A DNA stretch of 62,585 nt. Source: a virus. The notes under the pieces were generated by a model. The model did no database searches. It worked only from the letters and a program-made list of their open reading frames with translations, and was not told where the DNA came from. Of this stretch, positions 25,628 to 37,771 are shown piece by piece. Location of the stretch: positions 1 through 62,585 of IMG/VR virus record IMGVR_UViG_3300044813_000005; one strand, written 5' to 3'. The translations under genes and the position numbers were made by a program. Each line of letters begins with the position of its first letter. The first letter of the stretch is position 1.

Positions 25628-25812
25628 GGCGTGGTGCGGGCGGGGGCAGCGGCTTCCCCTTCCGCCACCCCCGCCCGGTCTGTGGGCTGCTGCCACCACA
25701 CGCCGGCCCCGTGCGAGGCGGGTGCGGGCCGTCCGGTGAGGAGCCGGGCGAGGTCGGTGGGGATGCGGACGACGCCTGCGGAGCGGAGCCACCGCCGGTC
25801 GGCGCGGGTCAT
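25624..25812 (-). CDS. Small basic hypothetical protein
   Basis: 62 aa, starting MTRADRRWLRSAGVVRIPTD, with a low-complexity Ala/Pro C-terminus. Coupled between the DpdA-like gene and its neighbour. Function is unknown. Confidence 0.5.
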   Translation of the reverse strand: MTRADRRWLRSAGVVRIPTDLARLLTGRPAPASHGAGVWWQQPTDRAGVAEGEAAAPARTTP

Positions 25813-26585
25813 GCTGCCCCCTCGAAGATGGATGGCTGGTGGTATTCGGTGCCTTGGAGTGCCCGGTCACGCCAGCGGGTGGCATAGCGCAGGCAGTTGG
25901 CGCAGGACTTGTGGCCGGTGCAACCGGGGAGGGTGCGGTCGCGGCGGGCGCGGAATGACCAGCTCATGCTGTCGGCGCTGGTGAGGTGGGCGGCGTAGGT
26001 GCGGAGGCCGTCGCCTTTGCAGCCGAATCCGTGTAGGCGGATGCCGAGGCTGGCTACGAGCTCGAGGATGTGGGCGACTTCGCCGGTGTTCTGCCTGCGA
26101 CATACGGATCCGACGCCGACGGTCGGTTCGACGGTGAGGTCGATCCCGGCGGCGGCGTACTGGTCGGCGTGGTTGAGGTAGTCGGCGGCGGCGAACCCTT
26201 GGAGGACGGGGATCCACGGCAGGTCGGGGGCGGCGTGGCGTAGCTCCAGTAGGTTGTCGGTGGTGCGCTGCTGGTGGTCGGCGACGGTGAGGCCGGTCTT
26301 GTCGAGGACGAACGGTTCGCACATCCAGTCCTGTGGGGCGGCCCAGTCGAGCTTGCCGATCTGGTCGGCGTACCGGCGGGCGGCGGCGACGTAGGGCCGC
26401 GCACCCTCGGCGTAGGCGTCGGCGCCGTGGAGGTTGAGTTCGGTGAATCCGCCGGAGTCGAGGACCCACGGGTGCAGGGCGCGGGGGAACGTCTTCCGAC
26501 CGGCGAGGCGGCGGTGGCTGACCATCAGCGGGTACGGGGCGACGTCCAGCCAGGACGGCATGTGGGTGCCGAGGTAGAACATCAT
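25809..26585 (-). CDS. dpdA: DpdA-like DNA deazaguanine transglycosylase
   Basis: 258 aa. It has the tRNA-guanine transglycosylase-type core: LGTHMPSWL at the start, WVLDSGGFTEL (DSGGF motif), PQDWMCEPFVL, VLQGF, VGVGSVCRRQ, RLHGFGCKG and SADSMSWSFRARR. C-terminal cysteines (GCTGHKSCANC) could bind zinc. Phage DpdA enzymes insert 7-deazaguanine bases into DNA and protect it from restriction. No preQ0 synthesis genes are seen; a YhhQ transporter gene is encoded nearby. Host tRNA modification is an alternative. Confidence 0.8.
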   Translation of the reverse strand: MMFYLGTHMPSWLDVAPYPLMVSHRRLAGRKTFPRALHPWVLDSGGFTELNLHGADAYAEGARPYVAAARRYADQIGKLDWAAPQDWMCEPFVLDKTGLTVADHQQRTTDNLLELRHAAPDLPWIPVLQGFAAADYLNHADQYAAAGIDLTVEPTVGVGSVCRRQNTGEVAHILELVASLGIRLHGFGCKGDGLRTYAAHLTSADSMSWSFRARRDRTLPGCTGHKSCANCLRYATRWRDRALQGTEYHQPSIFEGAA

Positions 26586-31504: not shown

Positions 31505-31960
31505 TCAGGCGGTGCCGTCCTGGATGGCGGCACGACGAGCACGCGACTCGGCCATGCGCCTGGCATGACAGGGGCGGCAGTGGCGACCGTCCCGATCGCG
31601 GTACGTGTTCACCTCGTTGAATGGGTGGCCGTGGCGACAGTGCGTCTTGCGGTAGTTCAGCCCGCTGGCGCCGTTACCTCGCCGCAGGTTCTCCTGGCAC
31701 GTCACGGGCTCCAGGTGCCACGGGTTGCAACAGGCGCGGTTGCGGCACAAGTGGTCCAGCTGCAACCCGTCGGGCACCGGGGCGACAAAGTGGGTGTACG
31801 TGACAACGTGCGTCCCGAAGACACGGTGAGCCCCCCGAGAGCCGATGCTGATCTGGCCGTAGCCAGATCGGTTCGTCCCGGGATAGACCCAACACCCATT
31901 GGCGTCTTCCTGAACCCGTGCCATGAGTCGCGGGAGTAGGGGAGTGATGGGCCGGCTCAT
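31505..31960 (-). CDS. HNH homing endonuclease (paralogue C)
   Basis: 151 aa. GCWVYPGTNRSGYGQIS, PDGLQLDHLCRNRACCN, PWHLEPVTCQENLRRG and KTHCRHGHPFNEVNT match paralogues A and B. Its ATG overlaps the cro-like stop, so it is the second gene of the early transcript. Confidence 0.85.
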   Translation of the reverse strand: MSRPITPLLPRLMARVQEDANGCWVYPGTNRSGYGQISIGSRGAHRVFGTHVVTYTHFVAPVPDGLQLDHLCRNRACCNPWHLEPVTCQENLRRGNGASGLNYRKTHCRHGHPFNEVNTYRDRDGRHCRPCHARRMAESRARRAAIQDGTA

Positions 31961-32172
31961 GCCGCCACCGGCTCGACCAGAAGCGACGCGACGGGCACGT
32001 CGAGGACGGCGGCGATGCGGCCGAGGCCGTGGGCCTTGGGGAGCCGGTCAGCCAGCTCCAGGCGAGCGATGGTGGAGGTCGACACACCGGCGCGTAGAGC
32101 AAGCTGCTCGCGGGTCAGCCCCGCCGACTCGCGGGCCGACCGGACGATCTGACCTGGGGTCGTTTCTGACAT
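31957..32172 (-). CDS. Cro-like XRE-family regulator
   Basis: 71 aa from ATG at 32172. VRSARESAGLTREQLALRAGVSTSTIARLELADRLPKAHGLGRIAA is a complete five-helix HTH_3 domain with no dimerization domain. It is the first gene of the early minus transcript, diverging from the repressor candidate, as in phage switches. A CAGGAT box 7 nt from the ATG suggests a leaderless message. Confidence 0.8.
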   Translation of the reverse strand: MSETTPGQIVRSARESAGLTREQLALRAGVSTSTIARLELADRLPKAHGLGRIAAVLDVPVASLLVEPVAA

Positions 32173-32237
32173 ATGGCAATCCTGCACCACCCTTCTTGAC
32201 ATGTCAAGCCTGCGCGGGGACCATTCCTGACATGTCG
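32167..32237. promoter_or_regulatory. Three operators in the divergent switch promoter
   Basis: TGACATATGG at 32167, TGACATGTCA at 32197 inside the perfect palindrome CTTGACATGTCAAG (32195-32208), and TGACATGTCG at 32228. Spacing is 30 and 31 bp, about three helical turns. The central palindrome holds back-to-back TTGACA -35 boxes (plus 32196-32201; minus 32207-32202). The minus promoter has CAGGAT at 32184-32179; the plus one perhaps GACCAT at 32219-32224. Confidence 0.75.
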
Positions 32238-32275
32238 TCCGACTCAACGGGGGACAACGAAGGGACAGGTGCAGA

Positions 32276-32635
32276 ATGGCCACACGCACGGTGACCTGGG
32301 GTGACGCGCTTCTCGCGGAAGCCACCAAGGCGCCCGGTGGGCTGAAGCAGGCCGTCGAGACGATCCGCGAAGAAGTGGGACCGCTCATCGGCACGCGGAA
32401 CACGTTCGCGAAGCTGCTGAAGGCCGAGGGGCCGGAGTCGCTGAACGAGTCAGACCTGTGGCGGGCGTGGCTGCTGCTGGTCGTGCTGGGGCAGGAGCCC
32501 GCCGACTGGGATGTCGACCTGTCGGTGATGCCCCGCGCCTACAGCGAGCGGGCGCTGCGGGCGAACCTGTTCAATGCGGTGCGCCGTCAGGGACTCGAAC
32601 CCCGAACCCGCTGGTTAATGGCTTCGGCGGCGTAG
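32276..32635 (+). CDS. Candidate immunity repressor with attP-encoded C-terminus
   Basis: 119 aa. GTRNTFAKLLKAEGPESLNESDLWRAWLLLVVLGQEPADWDV and AYSERALRANL look like actinophage immunity repressors of the BPs/Brujita kind, by memory. Residues from about 101 to 114 are encoded by the attP core, and the last five, MASAA, lie just beyond it. The Ala-Ala end resembles an ssrA-type degradation tag. Integration would replace that tail. It is followed by int, as in phages with integration-dependent immunity. Confidence 0.7.
   Translation: MATRTVTWGDALLAEATKAPGGLKQAVETIREEVGPLIGTRNTFAKLLKAEGPESLNESDLWRAWLLLVVLGQEPADWDVDLSVMPRAYSERALRANLFNAVRRQGLEPRTRWLMASAA
32580..32618. other. attP: attP core identical to a tRNA 3' half
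   Basis: Read on the minus strand it gives part of an anticodon loop and stem, GGGGTTCGAGTCCC (T arm with TTCGAGT loop) and ACGGCGCA (acceptor strand and discriminator). This looks like a tRNA-Lys 3' half. There is no 5' half here, so it is not a tRNA gene. It lies 75 bp before the integrase start and inside the repressor candidate. Confidence 0.82.
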
Positions 32636-32692
32636 CAGCCCCCCGGTTCCCCCGTTCGGGTGATTACGCCATGCACGCACGGTCAGCAGGAT

Positions 32693-33505
32693 ATGACAGT
32701 GACCACATCTCATTGGGAACCGGAGATCAAAGCGTGGGTCGGCTGGCTGCGCGCCGCCGGCCGTCCGCCGACCACCATCTACTTGAGGACCTACCACATC
32801 CGCCGGATCGGGCTGGTGTTCCCAACCCGCTCGCCGTGGGCGCTGACCGTCGAGGACCTGGCCGGGTGGCTGGGTGTGCATGACTGGTCCCCGGAGACTC
32901 GCCGCTCGTACCGGGCCAGCCTGCGTGCGTTCTTCGGCTGGGGGCTCATCACCGGCAGGGTGGTGGGTAACCCGGCGGCGCTGCTGCCCGTCGTGAAGCT
33001 GCCGGTGGGGAAGCCGCGGCCGGCACCGGAGCTGGTGTACCGGGCGGCGCTACTCCGCGCCGACGACCGGGAGCGCCTGATGCTCCGGCTGGCGGCGATG
33101 GCGGGTCTGCGCCGGGGTGAGATCAGCCGGGTCCGCGGTGATGACGTGGAGGCTGATCTGATCGGCTGGTCGCTGCGGGTGGTGGGGAAGGGCAGCGCGG
33201 TGCGGCTGGTGCCGCTGTTGGACGAGCTCGCCGCCGACCTGGCGGGTTTCTCGGGGTGGGTGTTCCCGGGGCAGGACGACGGGCATCTGTCGGCGGCGCA
33301 TGTGGGGAAGCTGATGTCGCGGCTGCTGGGGCCGGGGTGGACGGCGCACGGCCTGCGGCACCGGTTCGCCGCGCGGGCGTACGAGCCGGAGCGGGACATC
33401 CGGGCGGTGCAAATGTTGCTCGGTCATGCGTCTGTGGTGACGACCCAGCGGTACACACCGGTCCCGGCGGGGGCGTTGCGGGCTGCGGTCCTGGCAGCGT
33501 CCTAG
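32693..33505 (+). CDS. int: Small tyrosine integrase
   Basis: 270 aa from ATG at 32693; GTG at 32660 would add 11 residues. A SAM-like core-binding domain covers residues 1-100. Catalytic residues: R in GLRRGEISR, K in VVGKGS, H-x-x-R in HGLRHRF, H in LLGHAS, and Tyr in TTQRYTPV. Little sequence precedes the core-binding domain, so an arm-binding domain appears absent, as in Brujita integrase. Stop shares CTAG with the convergent gene. Confidence 0.9.
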   Translation: MTVTTSHWEPEIKAWVGWLRAAGRPPTTIYLRTYHIRRIGLVFPTRSPWALTVEDLAGWLGVHDWSPETRRSYRASLRAFFGWGLITGRVVGNPAALLPVVKLPVGKPRPAPELVYRAALLRADDRERLMLRLAAMAGLRRGEISRVRGDDVEADLIGWSLRVVGKGSAVRLVPLLDELAADLAGFSGWVFPGQDDGHLSAAHVGKLMSRLLGPGWTAHGLRHRFAARAYEPERDIRAVQMLLGHASVVTTQRYTPVPAGALRAAVLAAS

Positions 33506-34890
33506 ACGGTCGTGACTCCGACCAGCCGCCGCGCGCGCCACACGCCGTAGATCGGCACCGGCCCCCGGACGTTCGCCCCCGGATGCGGCGCTTCGACGAT
33601 CATGCCTCCGCCGAGGTAGATGACGACGTGCCCGCTGTCGGGGAACACGAGGTCCCCGCGCTGGATCTGCGACGGGTCCACAGCAACGCCCATCCCGATC
33701 AGCGTGGACGTGGTCGGCCGGCCGGGCAGCTTGAACGCGGCGTCGACGAGGCCGGAGCAGTCGAACGCGTTCGGGCCTTCCGCACCCCATACGTACGGCT
33801 TGCCGACCTGCGCCAGCGCGTACGCGATCGCCGCTTCGACGGTGGGGCTACCCGAGGTGGGGACGGTCGGCGTGCAGGTGACGGCGACAGGCTGCGCGAT
33901 CGGGTCGGCGACTGGGACGACCGGCGGGAACGGCCCGAGCGCGCCGCGGGCCTTGGCGAGCGCCTGCACGGCCTGCGCCTCGAACTTCAGGTAACGCCCG
34001 CTGCTGTACGTCTCCGCCCACGGCCTGCCCCAGTCCCAGCCTGCGTCCCGGAGGACAATCAGCGCCGCGTTCGCGTTCGCCTGCGGGTCGCGCCACGTCT
34101 CGCCGGGCAGTAGGCCGGGGTGGGCGGACAGCATGATCTGGAAGATGCCGCGTGCGCTGGTGTGCGGGTTGGCCGCGTTGGGGTTGGCCCCTGATTCGGC
34201 GAGGAGCACTTCCTGCGCGGTCAGCGGGTTGGGGAAGCCCCGGCCGTCCGGTAGGCGGGCCTTGAGCACGGCGCGGGCGGCGACGACCGCCGGCTCGTCG
34301 GTGCTGCTGGCGGGGATGCTGGCCGGGCCGGTGGGGCAGCACGGCGACGGCGCGGACACCTGCGTCGTCGGTGCGACGGGCTGCGCCGGGTCGACCGGCG
34401 CGGTCCCGCCTTTTACGGCGGATTGGAAGGCGTGCCAGCCGGTGGCGAGCGCCTGCCCAACCTGACGGCCGGCTGTCTCCATGCCGGCGCGCATCTGCTC
34501 GGCGTCCGGCGGCGGCTCAGTGAGCTTGTGCGCGAACCCACCGAAGCGATACCCGATGCCCGCCGCACCCCCGACCGGCAGCGGCGTGCAGGCCAGCGAG
34601 GCGTTGTAGGAGGCGGGGTGGACGAGCCCTTGGACGGCCCGGTCGAGCTGCGGGTACGCGCCGAGGAGCGCCTGCCAGATGAGGGTGAGGATGAACCCGA
34701 GGATCGCCAGCAGCTTCGCCAGCGACAGGTGGGACAGGGCGGCTTTGGTGCCGCCGAGCAGGCTGGGTCCGGCGGCGTGGGCGCCTTGCTTGGCGAGCCC
34801 GCCGAGGAGCGACTGCCCGCCGTGCGCCCACCCCCAGCCGAGCCCTTTGCAGACGGCCTTGGGTCCCCACAGGAACGGGTTCCAGCCCAT
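33502..34890 (-). CDS. Transglycosylase and NlpC/P60 peptidoglycan hydrolase
   Basis: 462 aa. An N-terminal membrane segment (LAKLLAILGFILTLIWQALLG) near residue 60 is followed by a Pro/Ala linker, then an SLT-like domain with VLLAESGANPNAAN and GIFQIM (catalytic Glu), and a C-terminal NlpC/P60 domain with NAFDCSGLVDAAF (Cys) and GHVVIYLG (His). The layout matches VirB1-like cell-wall enzymes of actinobacterial conjugative elements. It lies four genes downstream of the FtsK-like gene in the same operon. Confidence 0.83.
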   Translation of the reverse strand: MGWNPFLWGPKAVCKGLGWGWAHGGQSLLGGLAKQGAHAAGPSLLGGTKAALSHLSLAKLLAILGFILTLIWQALLGAYPQLDRAVQGLVHPASYNASLACTPLPVGGAAGIGYRFGGFAHKLTEPPPDAEQMRAGMETAGRQVGQALATGWHAFQSAVKGGTAPVDPAQPVAPTTQVSAPSPCCPTGPASIPASSTDEPAVVAARAVLKARLPDGRGFPNPLTAQEVLLAESGANPNAANPHTSARGIFQIMLSAHPGLLPGETWRDPQANANAALIVLRDAGWDWGRPWAETYSSGRYLKFEAQAVQALAKARGALGPFPPVVPVADPIAQPVAVTCTPTVPTSGSPTVEAAIAYALAQVGKPYVWGAEGPNAFDCSGLVDAAFKLPGRPTTSTLIGMGVAVDPSQIQRGDLVFPDSGHVVIYLGGGMIVEAPHPGANVRGPVPIYGVWRARRLVGVTTV

Positions 34891-35198
34891 CAGCTAGACG
34901 TGGCCCAGTGCTCGCAGCCGAGGCACCGTCCGCCCGGGACGTTGGCGAGTGGCCGCTTGCAGTCGACGCACGGGTACGCGTCAGGGGTCAGCACCGCGTC
35001 GACGGGGGCTGCCGGGATTGCCACTGGTCGGAGTCGTAACCAGATGATGGCGACCGCCCCGCCGACGAGGATGGAGACGAGGAGCCAGCCGAGCCACGGG
35101 TGGGTGACGGCTTCGAAGATGACGAACAGCTCGAGGGGCCAGGCGGCGAAGATCGCGGCGGGGGTGATCTGGAAGTCGGTCCAGAACCCGCGCCTCAT
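34890..35198 (-). CDS. Membrane protein with zinc ribbon
   Basis: 102 aa from ATG at 35198. Two hydrophobic segments (IFAAWPLELFVIFEAVT; LGWLLVSILVGGAVAIIWL) and a C-terminal CVDCKRPL...CLGCEHW zinc ribbon. It is coupled to both neighbours. Probably part of the FtsK-linked envelope complex, by position. Confidence 0.65.
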   Translation of the reverse strand: MRRGFWTDFQITPAAIFAAWPLELFVIFEAVTHPWLGWLLVSILVGGAVAIIWLRLRPVAIPAAPVDAVLTPDAYPCVDCKRPLANVPGGRCLGCEHWATSS

Positions 35199-35692
35199 GC
35201 CGCTGCCCTCGTCCGTGGGTGCGGTTTGTTGCAGGTGGCGCACATGAACAGCGGCGGCCGCCCGCCGGCCTGGAACGGATGGTCGGCCGGAAGTTTGCCG
35301 ACCCGCCATTCCAGTTTCCTGTCCCCGTTCCGCATGAGGAACTTCTCAAGGCCGAGCTGCTTCAGTTCATCCGCGGAGTGACGAGCCAGTGGCCGCTGGT
35401 CGGGCGTCGCCTGCCATGACCGCCACGTCTTGACCGCACGGCGTACGTGCGGGGCGGCGAGGCCGACCCCGGCGAATGCAGCGCCGCCGATGACGAGGAG
35501 CGGGGCGTGGACCCACGCCGTCGCCAGCACAGCAGCGCCGACGCCGAGGCGCAGCGGCCGGTTCTTGGCGTAGAACCGCTTCGCCGACCGCTTGACCGTG
35601 GCCTTGCCGCGCTGCCCTTTGACGCCCTTGCGGTAGGCGGTGGCACCACTCCGGGTCTTGTACTGGCCTCCACGGCGCTGGTAAGTGGTCAT
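35195..35692 (-). CDS. Basic membrane protein
   Basis: 165 aa from ATG at 35692. A very basic N-terminus (YRKGVKGQRGKATVKRSAKRF) precedes two hydrophobic segments (LGVGAAVLATAWVHAPLLVIGG). The C-terminus has CATCNKPH. Its ATG overlaps the FtsK-like stop. Similar small membrane proteins accompany TraB/FtsK genes in integrative elements. Confidence 0.65.
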   Translation of the reverse strand: MTTYQRRGGQYKTRSGATAYRKGVKGQRGKATVKRSAKRFYAKNRPLRLGVGAAVLATAWVHAPLLVIGGAAFAGVGLAAPHVRRAVKTWRSWQATPDQRPLARHSADELKQLGLEKFLMRNGDRKLEWRVGKLPADHPFQAGGRPPLFMCATCNKPHPRTRAAA

Positions 35693-37530
35693 GAGGCTTC
35701 GCCTTCTTTCCATACGGGGGCTGTTTGAGCCTGTCCAACGTCTATGCGGCGGGGGGTTTGAGCGTGCCGCGCGGGAACGGCGCGTAGGGGTTGAGCCTTC
35801 GGCGCGGGGGGTGCGAGGCGATATGCGGAGCCGTTGCGGGTCCCATAGCGCTCCACGGAGCCAGCCATCTTCGCGAGGCGGAGGCCGAGCGTCGTCGGGT
35901 TGGGCGGCCGGAGGTCCGGGTCCAGCAGGTCGTGGATGCCCTTTGCCGTCAGCGGGCCGTGGATTGTGAGGATGTCGACGACGGCGCTCTCAAGGTCGAC
36001 GACCTTCGGCTTGCCGAGAGCGCGGAGTGCCCTGGCCCGGTCGCAGATCGCCCGCCAGTCGGCGTCGTCGATGTAGTCGAACCGGAACGCCACCTCCACG
36101 CCGGGGGTCATCATGATCGCCTCCCCGCGCTGCGCCGGCAGGGGGACGGTCGGCGTCTCCCCGAGGATCAGCTTGGCGTTGGCGGCGTTCCGCATGGCGA
36201 GGGCGAACCGGGTGTCGATGAGGTCCCGGACACCGCCGGGGAGGTCTTCGACGGACGGTCGCTGGGTGGAGAACAGCATGACCAGCTCGACGGCCCGACA
36301 GAGGCGGACGAGGCGTTCCATCGTCGCGTCGATCCGGGTGAGGGTCTTCTTGTCGGCGCCGGACCGGACGTCCTGGAACTCTTCCAGGATCAGCAGGACG
36401 CCGGGGTCTTTGACGGCCGGGTCGGTGGAGTTGCGGGTCCGGACGAGGTTCAGTACTTCGTCGAGCATGTCGGCCAGTTCGGCGGCGGCGTCTTCGGAGG
36501 TGCCGCGGACGAACGTGTCGCACAGGTCCCACAGGTCGCGGTAGTCCCGGGCCGACCCTTTGCCGTCGAGGCCGAAGATGCGGGTGCGGGGGTCGAGGAT
36601 GAACTGGGCGATGACGAGACGGGCGGCCCTGGTCTTGCCGCGCCCGGGCATGCCGGCGATGAGGATGTTGTGTTCGTCCGTCTCCACGTCGACGGGGGTG
36701 CCGCGCAGCATCTCCGCGCCGACGCGGAACGGCTGGTCCCATTCGGTGCGTTCGGCGGTGGCGAGGTGGGAGCGGACGGGCGGCAGGTTCGGGCGGGGCA
36801 GGCCGACGAACATGCGGACCATCGACGCGGGTGTGTTCGGCGGGTGGCTGATCTCCACGAGCGCGGGGTCGAGGCGGAACGCCCCGGCGAGTTTGGCCCG
36901 GTTGGCGATGAACGTGTCGCAGGGGACGGCGTGCCGTCCGTCGGCGATCAGCTCGAAGTCGATACGGGTCCCGGCAGCCGTGTGAACGGGCTGGCCGTGG
37001 CGGCGGGTCTTGGGCTTGCGGCCGTTCGCTGCGGTTTCTTTGACGATGCCGGCGAAGATGCAGGCGGGGATGAGGCTGCGTTCTTTCCAGAACGTCAGCT
37101 GGGGTGCGGGGCGGGTGAGGATCGCGGCGGGGACGCAGACGGCGAGCAGTAGGAACGCGATCAGCCGGGGCGGGACGACGAGGAGCGCCAGCAGCCCGAC
37201 AACCGTGGCGGCGGCGGTGCCGGCGAGGACCCGTCGGCCGGTGAGCCAGCGGGAGTCGGGCGGGTAGAAGGACCGTTCGGCGCGGGTCCGCTCGAGCCCG
37301 GCCCACAGCCCGGCACCCGCGAGGGCGACGTAGGCGAGGGCGACGATGGTGGTGGCGGGGATGACGGCGACGGCGATGAGGACCCCGGCCGCGCCGAAGC
37401 ACAGGCGCCGCCCCCGTTTGGAGACGGCGCCGGTGGCGGTGCGGGCGAGGATGAGTAGGTCTTTCTGGCGGGCTGCGGTGCTGTGGCCGACTGCCAGCCG
37501 GTACAGGGCGCTGCCGGTGGCGGAGGTCAC
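35689..37530 (-). CDS. FtsK/TraB-like DNA translocase
   Basis: About 613 aa from GTG at 37530. Two pairs of N-terminal membrane segments. Walker A is AGMPGRGKTRAA, Walker B LLILEEFQDV, and a sensor region FSTQRPS follows. The C-terminal 70 residues look like a winged helix (LTAKGIHDLLDPDLRPPNPTTLGLRLAKM). This is the layout of actinobacterial TraB and FtsK, which move double-stranded DNA between cells or compartments. It is unusual in a phage genome. Confidence 0.83.
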   Translation of the reverse strand: MTSATGSALYRLAVGHSTAARQKDLLILARTATGAVSKRGRRLCFGAAGVLIAVAVIPATTIVALAYVALAGAGLWAGLERTRAERSFYPPDSRWLTGRRVLAGTAAATVVGLLALLVVPPRLIAFLLLAVCVPAAILTRPAPQLTFWKERSLIPACIFAGIVKETAANGRKPKTRRHGQPVHTAAGTRIDFELIADGRHAVPCDTFIANRAKLAGAFRLDPALVEISHPPNTPASMVRMFVGLPRPNLPPVRSHLATAERTEWDQPFRVGAEMLRGTPVDVETDEHNILIAGMPGRGKTRAARLVIAQFILDPRTRIFGLDGKGSARDYRDLWDLCDTFVRGTSEDAAAELADMLDEVLNLVRTRNSTDPAVKDPGVLLILEEFQDVRSGADKKTLTRIDATMERLVRLCRAVELVMLFSTQRPSVEDLPGGVRDLIDTRFALAMRNAANAKLILGETPTVPLPAQRGEAIMMTPGVEVAFRFDYIDDADWRAICDRARALRALGKPKVVDLESAVVDILTIHGPLTAKGIHDLLDPDLRPPNPTTLGLRLAKMAGSVERYGTRNGSAYRLAPPAPKAQPLRAVPARHAQTPRRIDVGQAQTAPVWKEGEAS

Positions 37531-37534
37531 GGGC

Positions 37535-37771
37535 TTACTTGACGGTTGTGTTGGTGGCGGTCTGCGGGGTGGTCGGCGCGGTCTTGCTGGGTGCGGCGGG
37601 TGCGTCAGTGAGCCCGTGGTAGACGGCTGGGACGAACACCTGCCCTGCCAGCTTGAGCCCACCGCCGAGCGCGTGCCCCGCTCCGCCTAGCACCTGCCCT
37701 GCGACGGTGGCCCCGTTAATGAGGACCATGTACGTCGCGAACGCGGCGACGATGACTGCGATCTTCTTCAT
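37535..37771 (-). CDS. Small membrane or secreted protein
   Basis: 78 aa. MKKIAVIVAAFATYMVLING is a signal anchor, followed by a Gly-rich segment and a Thr/Pro-rich tail. First gene of the FtsK operon, just downstream of the inverted repeats. Function is unknown. Confidence 0.65.
   Translation of the reverse strand: MKKIAVIVAAFATYMVLINGATVAGQVLGGAGHALGGGLKLAGQVFVPAVYHGLTDAPAAPSKTAPTTPQTATNTTVK

Follow-up and report, generated by a model that had tools for sequence, protein, structure and literature searches.

An attP-bearing repressor candidate of a putative new family in a probable integration-dependent immunity cassette of a temperate actinophage

A 62,585-bp viral record (IMG/VR IMGVR_UViG_3300044813_000005, positions 1 to 62,585; the window, meaning the whole stretch of DNA analysed) probably represents a temperate tailed actinophage that carries an integration-dependent immunity cassette, with a probability of about 0.83 for this reading and for the architecture of the cassette as a whole. 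The phage attachment site, attP, lies within the gene of a candidate repressor, which is followed by an integrase gene and faced by a divergent regulator gene. In relatives, integration takes place at this very point and replaces the C-terminal tail of the protein. The proposed degradation of the viral form is, taken alone, less certain than the architecture, as two family members lack the -AA ending. The window is assigned to a tailed phage because it contains terminase, portal, capsid, scaffold and tail genes; endolysin, RecT and primase genes are also present.

The cassette

The repressor candidate (positions 32276-32635, plus strand) is 119 aa long in its viral form. Its codon-position GC (0.71/0.50/0.86) is of coding type and it has ten homologues, located at attachment junctions or beside an integrase, so the reading frame is considered real. 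The gene ends in a tRNA-Lys-type core, followed by the codons for MASAA and a stop. This attP common core (32578-32618) corresponds to the 3' end of a tRNA-Lys on the minus strand, and of 385 genomes from the class, five have tRNA-Lys(CTT) genes that match its 41 bp exactly. Read on the plus strand, it encodes residues 102-114 of the repressor candidate (VRRQGLEPRTRWL). The viral-only MASAA tail (32618-32632, plus strand; residues 115-119) lies outside the core and overlaps it only at base 1 of its Met codon. ARAGORN detected no whole tRNA in the window, which fits what is expected of an attP half-site.

Downstream of the repressor candidate and in the same direction is a tyrosine integrase gene (32660-33505, plus strand, 281 aa; Pfam Phage_integrase, E 2.4e-17), with an alternative ATG start at 32693. 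On the other side, a divergent Cro-like HTH gene (31957-32172, minus strand, 71 aa; Pfam HTH_3, E 4.3e-12) keeps its position in the homologous loci. The integrase found no relative as a lone query against viral and genome collections, and its kinship was established in a separate comparison. There, its nearest relatives are from Gordonia cluster CW and related phages, followed by a Curtobacterium phage and Mycobacterium phages, and it is 44-54% identical to Gordonia phage integrases that adjoin attP-bearing repressors. The same gene order recurs in the related phage records that were opened, where the protein containing the tRNA-like core is annotated as an immunity repressor or as DNA-binding.

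Homologues and attachment junctions

Used as a lone query against viral and genome collections, the repressor candidate likewise returned no relative. The family was opened with a spaced degenerate pattern, which led to locus L016, and later members were found by profile searches. The ten homologues are L016, G002, G258, G403, G462, G467, L053, L054, L055 and L056. For eight of them the end coincides with an attachment junction: in five cases it falls in a complete host tRNA gene, and in the other three, the proviruses L053, L054 and L056, it is a provirus end cut at the junction. L055 is a free copy and G467 is unsplit; neither of these two unsplit copies shows a tRNA-like core. When 395 genomes sampled evenly across the class were searched, the sole match was G002, an uncultured Mycobacterium (UC10), and the family is therefore rare; the remaining genome matches belong to the family and order of this Mycobacterium.

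The protein encoded by L016 is 54% identical to the repressor candidate, and its gene continues into a complete tRNA-Lys(CTT), an integrated junction at exactly the position of the core within the gene. The junction reads CGCTGATTAAG, and its TGA stops the protein at ..RTR. Beyond this tRNA lies a gene that, judging by its motif, may resemble an L,D-transpeptidase. Other junctions fall in tRNA-Asn (G002 and G403), tRNA-Lys TTT (G258) and tRNA-Arg CCT (G462), and on the contig of each of these four, a second core copy and an integrase gene lie at a distance of 41-60 kb. The attL/attR pairs show that the same logic holds over several tRNA targets. In the homologous prophages, integration places the repressor gene at attL, where the phage tail gives way to a premature stop or a handful of host codons, while that tail and the integrase lie at the opposite prophage end. 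Integration would also separate the integrase from the repressor promoter.

Several details of these loci were recorded. At the attR of G462 (L043), two tandem tRNA-Arg cores about 100 bp apart both lead into the same -AA tail; the doubling is perhaps a leftover of an earlier integration. In G258, the integrase is followed immediately by another tRNA-Lys(TTT) gene (L030:2344-2417), recalling tRNA-dependent lysogeny (PMC10865867). The very small proviruses L054 (15.6 kb) and L056 (15.3 kb) have an integrase at one end and the family repressor at the other, and come near the Gordonia cluster CW phages in size.

Viral and prophage C-termini

The viral ends of G002, G403, G462 and G258 were rebuilt by joining attL and attR; those of the window, L055 and G467 are unsplit. 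In these four pairs, where the sequence can be read directly, prophage and viral C-termini differ: ..HQPSD in the prophage versus ..PSGCEFGRLPNWEDDDLSDAA in the rebuilt viral form (G002), ..NQEHSD versus ..ARAAADAAVRAA (G403), ..LRHTV versus ..HTVYNSVRSLSVAA (G462), and ..KVRSSTN versus ..LQERNL, which lacks -AA (G258). The other prophage forms end in ..EPRTR (L016), ..EPLTS (L053), ..EPPTF (L054) and ..QRPSD (L056), and the unsplit forms in ASAA (window), EVAA (L055) and SVPA (G467, again without -AA). An -AA ending is thus found in three of the four rebuilt viral forms, in the window and in the free phage L055, or 5/7 viral forms versus 0/8 prophage forms (Fisher p 0.007).

Among all gene calls, 14/209 end in -AA, with 11/65 (17%) in the window and 3/144 in the other loci; the high share in the window may reflect gene calling or composition. 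Given those 11 calls, an -AA ending is weak evidence by itself, and the weight lies on the pattern across homologues and not on the ending in the window alone. Mycobacterium abscessus systems likewise mix -AA and other tails (PMC8092301), and in BPs the viral repressor becomes more stable, and lysogeny more frequent, when a tail residue is altered (A135E; PMC4557955).

As searches turned up no lysogen of the window's phage, its own attL is a prediction, not a reading. Should the phage choose hosts that carry the identical core, lysogens would make a protein of 121 aa ending in ..RTRWLRASCSAN or ..SAY; one predicted end reads ..RWLRASCSAN. Integration is therefore predicted to exchange the tail (119 to 121 aa), making the protein two residues longer instead of truncating it.

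Taken together, these features suggest how the switch may work. The phage-encoded form, with its disordered -AA tail, would be degraded by a ClpXP type of proteolysis, and lysogeny would not be held. A stable repressor would be made only once the integrase has joined attP to the host tRNA-Lys gene, and could then shut the early HTH promoter through palindromic intergenic sites. The viral and prophage tails are a ready-made natural series in which the causes of instability at a repressor's end could be studied.

An earlier note on this DNA, made from its letters alone, had placed attP inside the candidate gene, with the last codons formed by a tRNA-like core and MASAA outside it, in a layout of repressor, attP, integrase and divergent Cro. 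All of this agrees with the present results, apart from the single shared base of the Met codon. It had also expected the tail to come from the host after integration, as is seen at attL and attR of homologous prophages and predicted for the window. Reading attL, which it proposed as a check, was possible in the relatives that end at junctions. The integration-dependent layout is supported because attL and attR could be read in homologous prophages and because the phages with the closest integrases have published systems of this kind.

Control region

The intergenic region between the HTH gene and the repressor candidate is conserved across all ten loci and contains divergent promoters with overlapping -35 boxes. 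These boxes form a perfect palindrome, TTGACATGTCAA (32196-32207), which consists of two -35 boxes back to back and is a probable operator. It occurs once in the window and in six of the ten loci, exactly in four and as TTGACGTGTCAA in two; this conserved element provides a defined candidate operator. The predicted leftward -10 box (CAGGAT, 32179-32184, minus strand) lies 17 bp from the TTGACA at 32207-32202, a spacing preserved in relatives. Rightward, the predicted -10 box of the repressor promoter (GACCAT, 32219-32224, plus strand) also follows its TTGACA by 17 bp, and an ATG is found exactly 7 nt after this box in 10/10 loci. Two further motifs flank the promoters. TGACATATGGCA (32167-32178), a possible operator kept in related loci, covers the start codon of the HTH gene and, as an ATATG-type motif, is similar to the half site of the BPs operator, CGACATATGTCG (PMC4557955). 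The other, TGACATGTC (32228-32236), is conserved with slight variation between related loci and holds the ATG that comes first on the rightward transcript.

This ATG region opens a putative leaderless mini-ORF of 20 codons (32232-32294, plus strand) that overlaps the start of the repressor candidate. In six relatives, a gene of 105-109 aa begins where the mini-ORF begins and lies between promoter and repressor (L016:501-830, L026:1188-1508, L053:5669-5986, and also in L039, L054 and L056). Its product starts with MSQ.. and has a conserved C-x-x-C segment (MCGSCVMA-like); the repressor-family scans gave it no Pfam match, PHROG offered nothing convincing, and tblastn against phages found no match.

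Protein family and fold

Searches of Pfam, PHROG and NCBIfam gave no match to the repressor candidate, nor did HTH profiles or a sequence-profile search of solved chains. No relatives were found in 50,697 phage and 72,556 plasmid records, tblastn included. AlphaFold models built from 3 and 7 sequences reached mean pLDDT values of 85 and 90 and pTM values of 0.80 and 0.83, respectively. The mean pLDDT of 90 covers residues 1-104, and residues 114-119 are disordered in the full-length model. Foldseek found no significant match to the model in PDB or BFVD. With VIA-align, all matches listed for the 104-aa model (Z of at least 2) are lambda-repressor-like domains, and they are weak, at Z around 5. 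The best is ImmR (Z 5.4, rmsd 2.4, 63 residues), with EspR (5.0), P22 c2 (4.9) and TP901-1 CI (4.8) among the others. The model thus suggests a divergent lambda-repressor-like fold, and repression by this protein would be consistent with it.

Outside the attP-encoded segment, BLASTP and hhalign revealed no homology to cluster CW or BPs-type repressors, and hhalign found no profile homology with other integration-dependent repressors. As judged from sequence, the protein represents a new repressor family in an already known kind of switch.

Comparison with known systems

Exchange of the repressor tail upon integration is itself already known from mycobacterial and Gordonia phages, and the cassette described here extends integration-dependent immunity by a repressor family not described before. 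Gordonia cluster CW phages use such immunity, with a 37-bp attP in tRNA-Lys (PMC5559632). The CW and related small phages that were compared (Coeur, Rahul, McGonagall, Jeanie, GMA5, GRU3 and Emperor) resemble the window in their tRNA-Lys attP core, their gene order and their viral repressors ending in -AA. However, they are about 16-18 kb in size, whereas the window's phage is at least 62 kb. The core within Coeur's annotated immunity repressor is 38/39 identical to that of the window and read in the same frame. Rahul also uses this frame, while McGonagall, GMA5, GRU3 and Emperor use another. The suggestion in the earlier note that the core was new therefore does not stand, as Coeur and Rahul share it. 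Coeur gp20 and the window protein have just the 13 core-encoded residues in common, so that two unrelated repressors use one attP in a single reading frame.

BPs (cluster G) and Brujita (cluster I) are alike in having attP in the repressor gene, a downstream tyrosine integrase, a divergent regulator and a palindromic ATATG-type operator. Clusters G, I, N and P are named as users of integration-dependent immunity in PMC4557955, which names Giles separately. The earlier note had invoked the logic of BPs, Brujita and Giles. The layout of the first two supports the comparison; Giles was rejected as a precedent, since its integrase is not beside a repressor. The homology to BPs gp33 that the note proposed to look for was absent from Liefie gp33, the cluster G protein that stood in for the BPs repressor; the window protein is predicted to share the general HTH fold of BPs-type and cluster CW repressors. 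Liefie's tail ends in KAS and the window's in AA, and the prophage form is 33 residues shorter in BPs but may be 2 longer in the window. Immunity groups of M. abscessus prophages (PMC8092301, PMC9934374), here set against the window by description only, are likewise integration-dependent, with many unrelated repressors, some tRNA targets and some -AA tails.

A broader idea is tentative, and we rate it at somewhat below even odds. A repressor family unrelated by sequence to all catalogued phage repressors would have kept integration-controlled stability while changing tRNA targets. The core would serve as a coding cassette that can be swapped, and its frame together with the half supplied by the host would determine whether the prophage repressor is truncated or gains a new tail; here the outcome would be exchange (119 to 121 aa).

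Alternative explanations

The divergent HTH protein could itself be the immunity repressor, and the attP-bearing gene an integration-linked accessory protein, such as a directionality or antirepressor factor, that integration would retune. The attP-bearing frame has no DNA-binding match in Pfam, PHROG or NCBIfam and its divergent neighbour is clearly HTH_3, as this explanation would have it, but the exclusively lambda-repressor-like VIA-align matches point the other way. In eight prophages the gene also stays whole at attL, adjoining host DNA, as would be expected of a gene expressed in lysogens, and an annotated repressor occupies the same slot in related cassettes, which makes an accessory role unlikely. 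It is similarly improbable that the tail swap is a by-product of compact tRNA integration sites, with both forms equally stable. The frequency of -AA endings in the window and the two members without them (G258 and G467) would suit such a by-product; the skew of -AA towards viral forms and the effect of A135E in BPs (PMC4557955) would not.

A location of attP elsewhere, with the tRNA-like stretch a chance or fossil match, might be entertained given the missing lysogen, but is highly improbable in view of the 41-bp identity to tRNA-Lys genes, the integration of L016 at exactly this gene position and the presence of the same core at the same place in Coeur. On the first two of these observations, a chance origin of the core was rejected. 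An integration-dependent immunity cassette remains the preferred reading.

Other genes in the window

Two further observations concern genes outside the cassette. A queuine tRNA-ribosyltransferase-like gene (25809-26585, minus strand; PHROG 1279, E 1e-93) possibly serves deazaguanine modification of DNA. Adjoining the integrase, the region 33502-37662 (minus strand) encodes an NlpC/P60 plus transglycosylase-like protein and an FtsK/SpoIIIE-like ATPase, a pair that would be less surprising in a conjugative element than in a phage.
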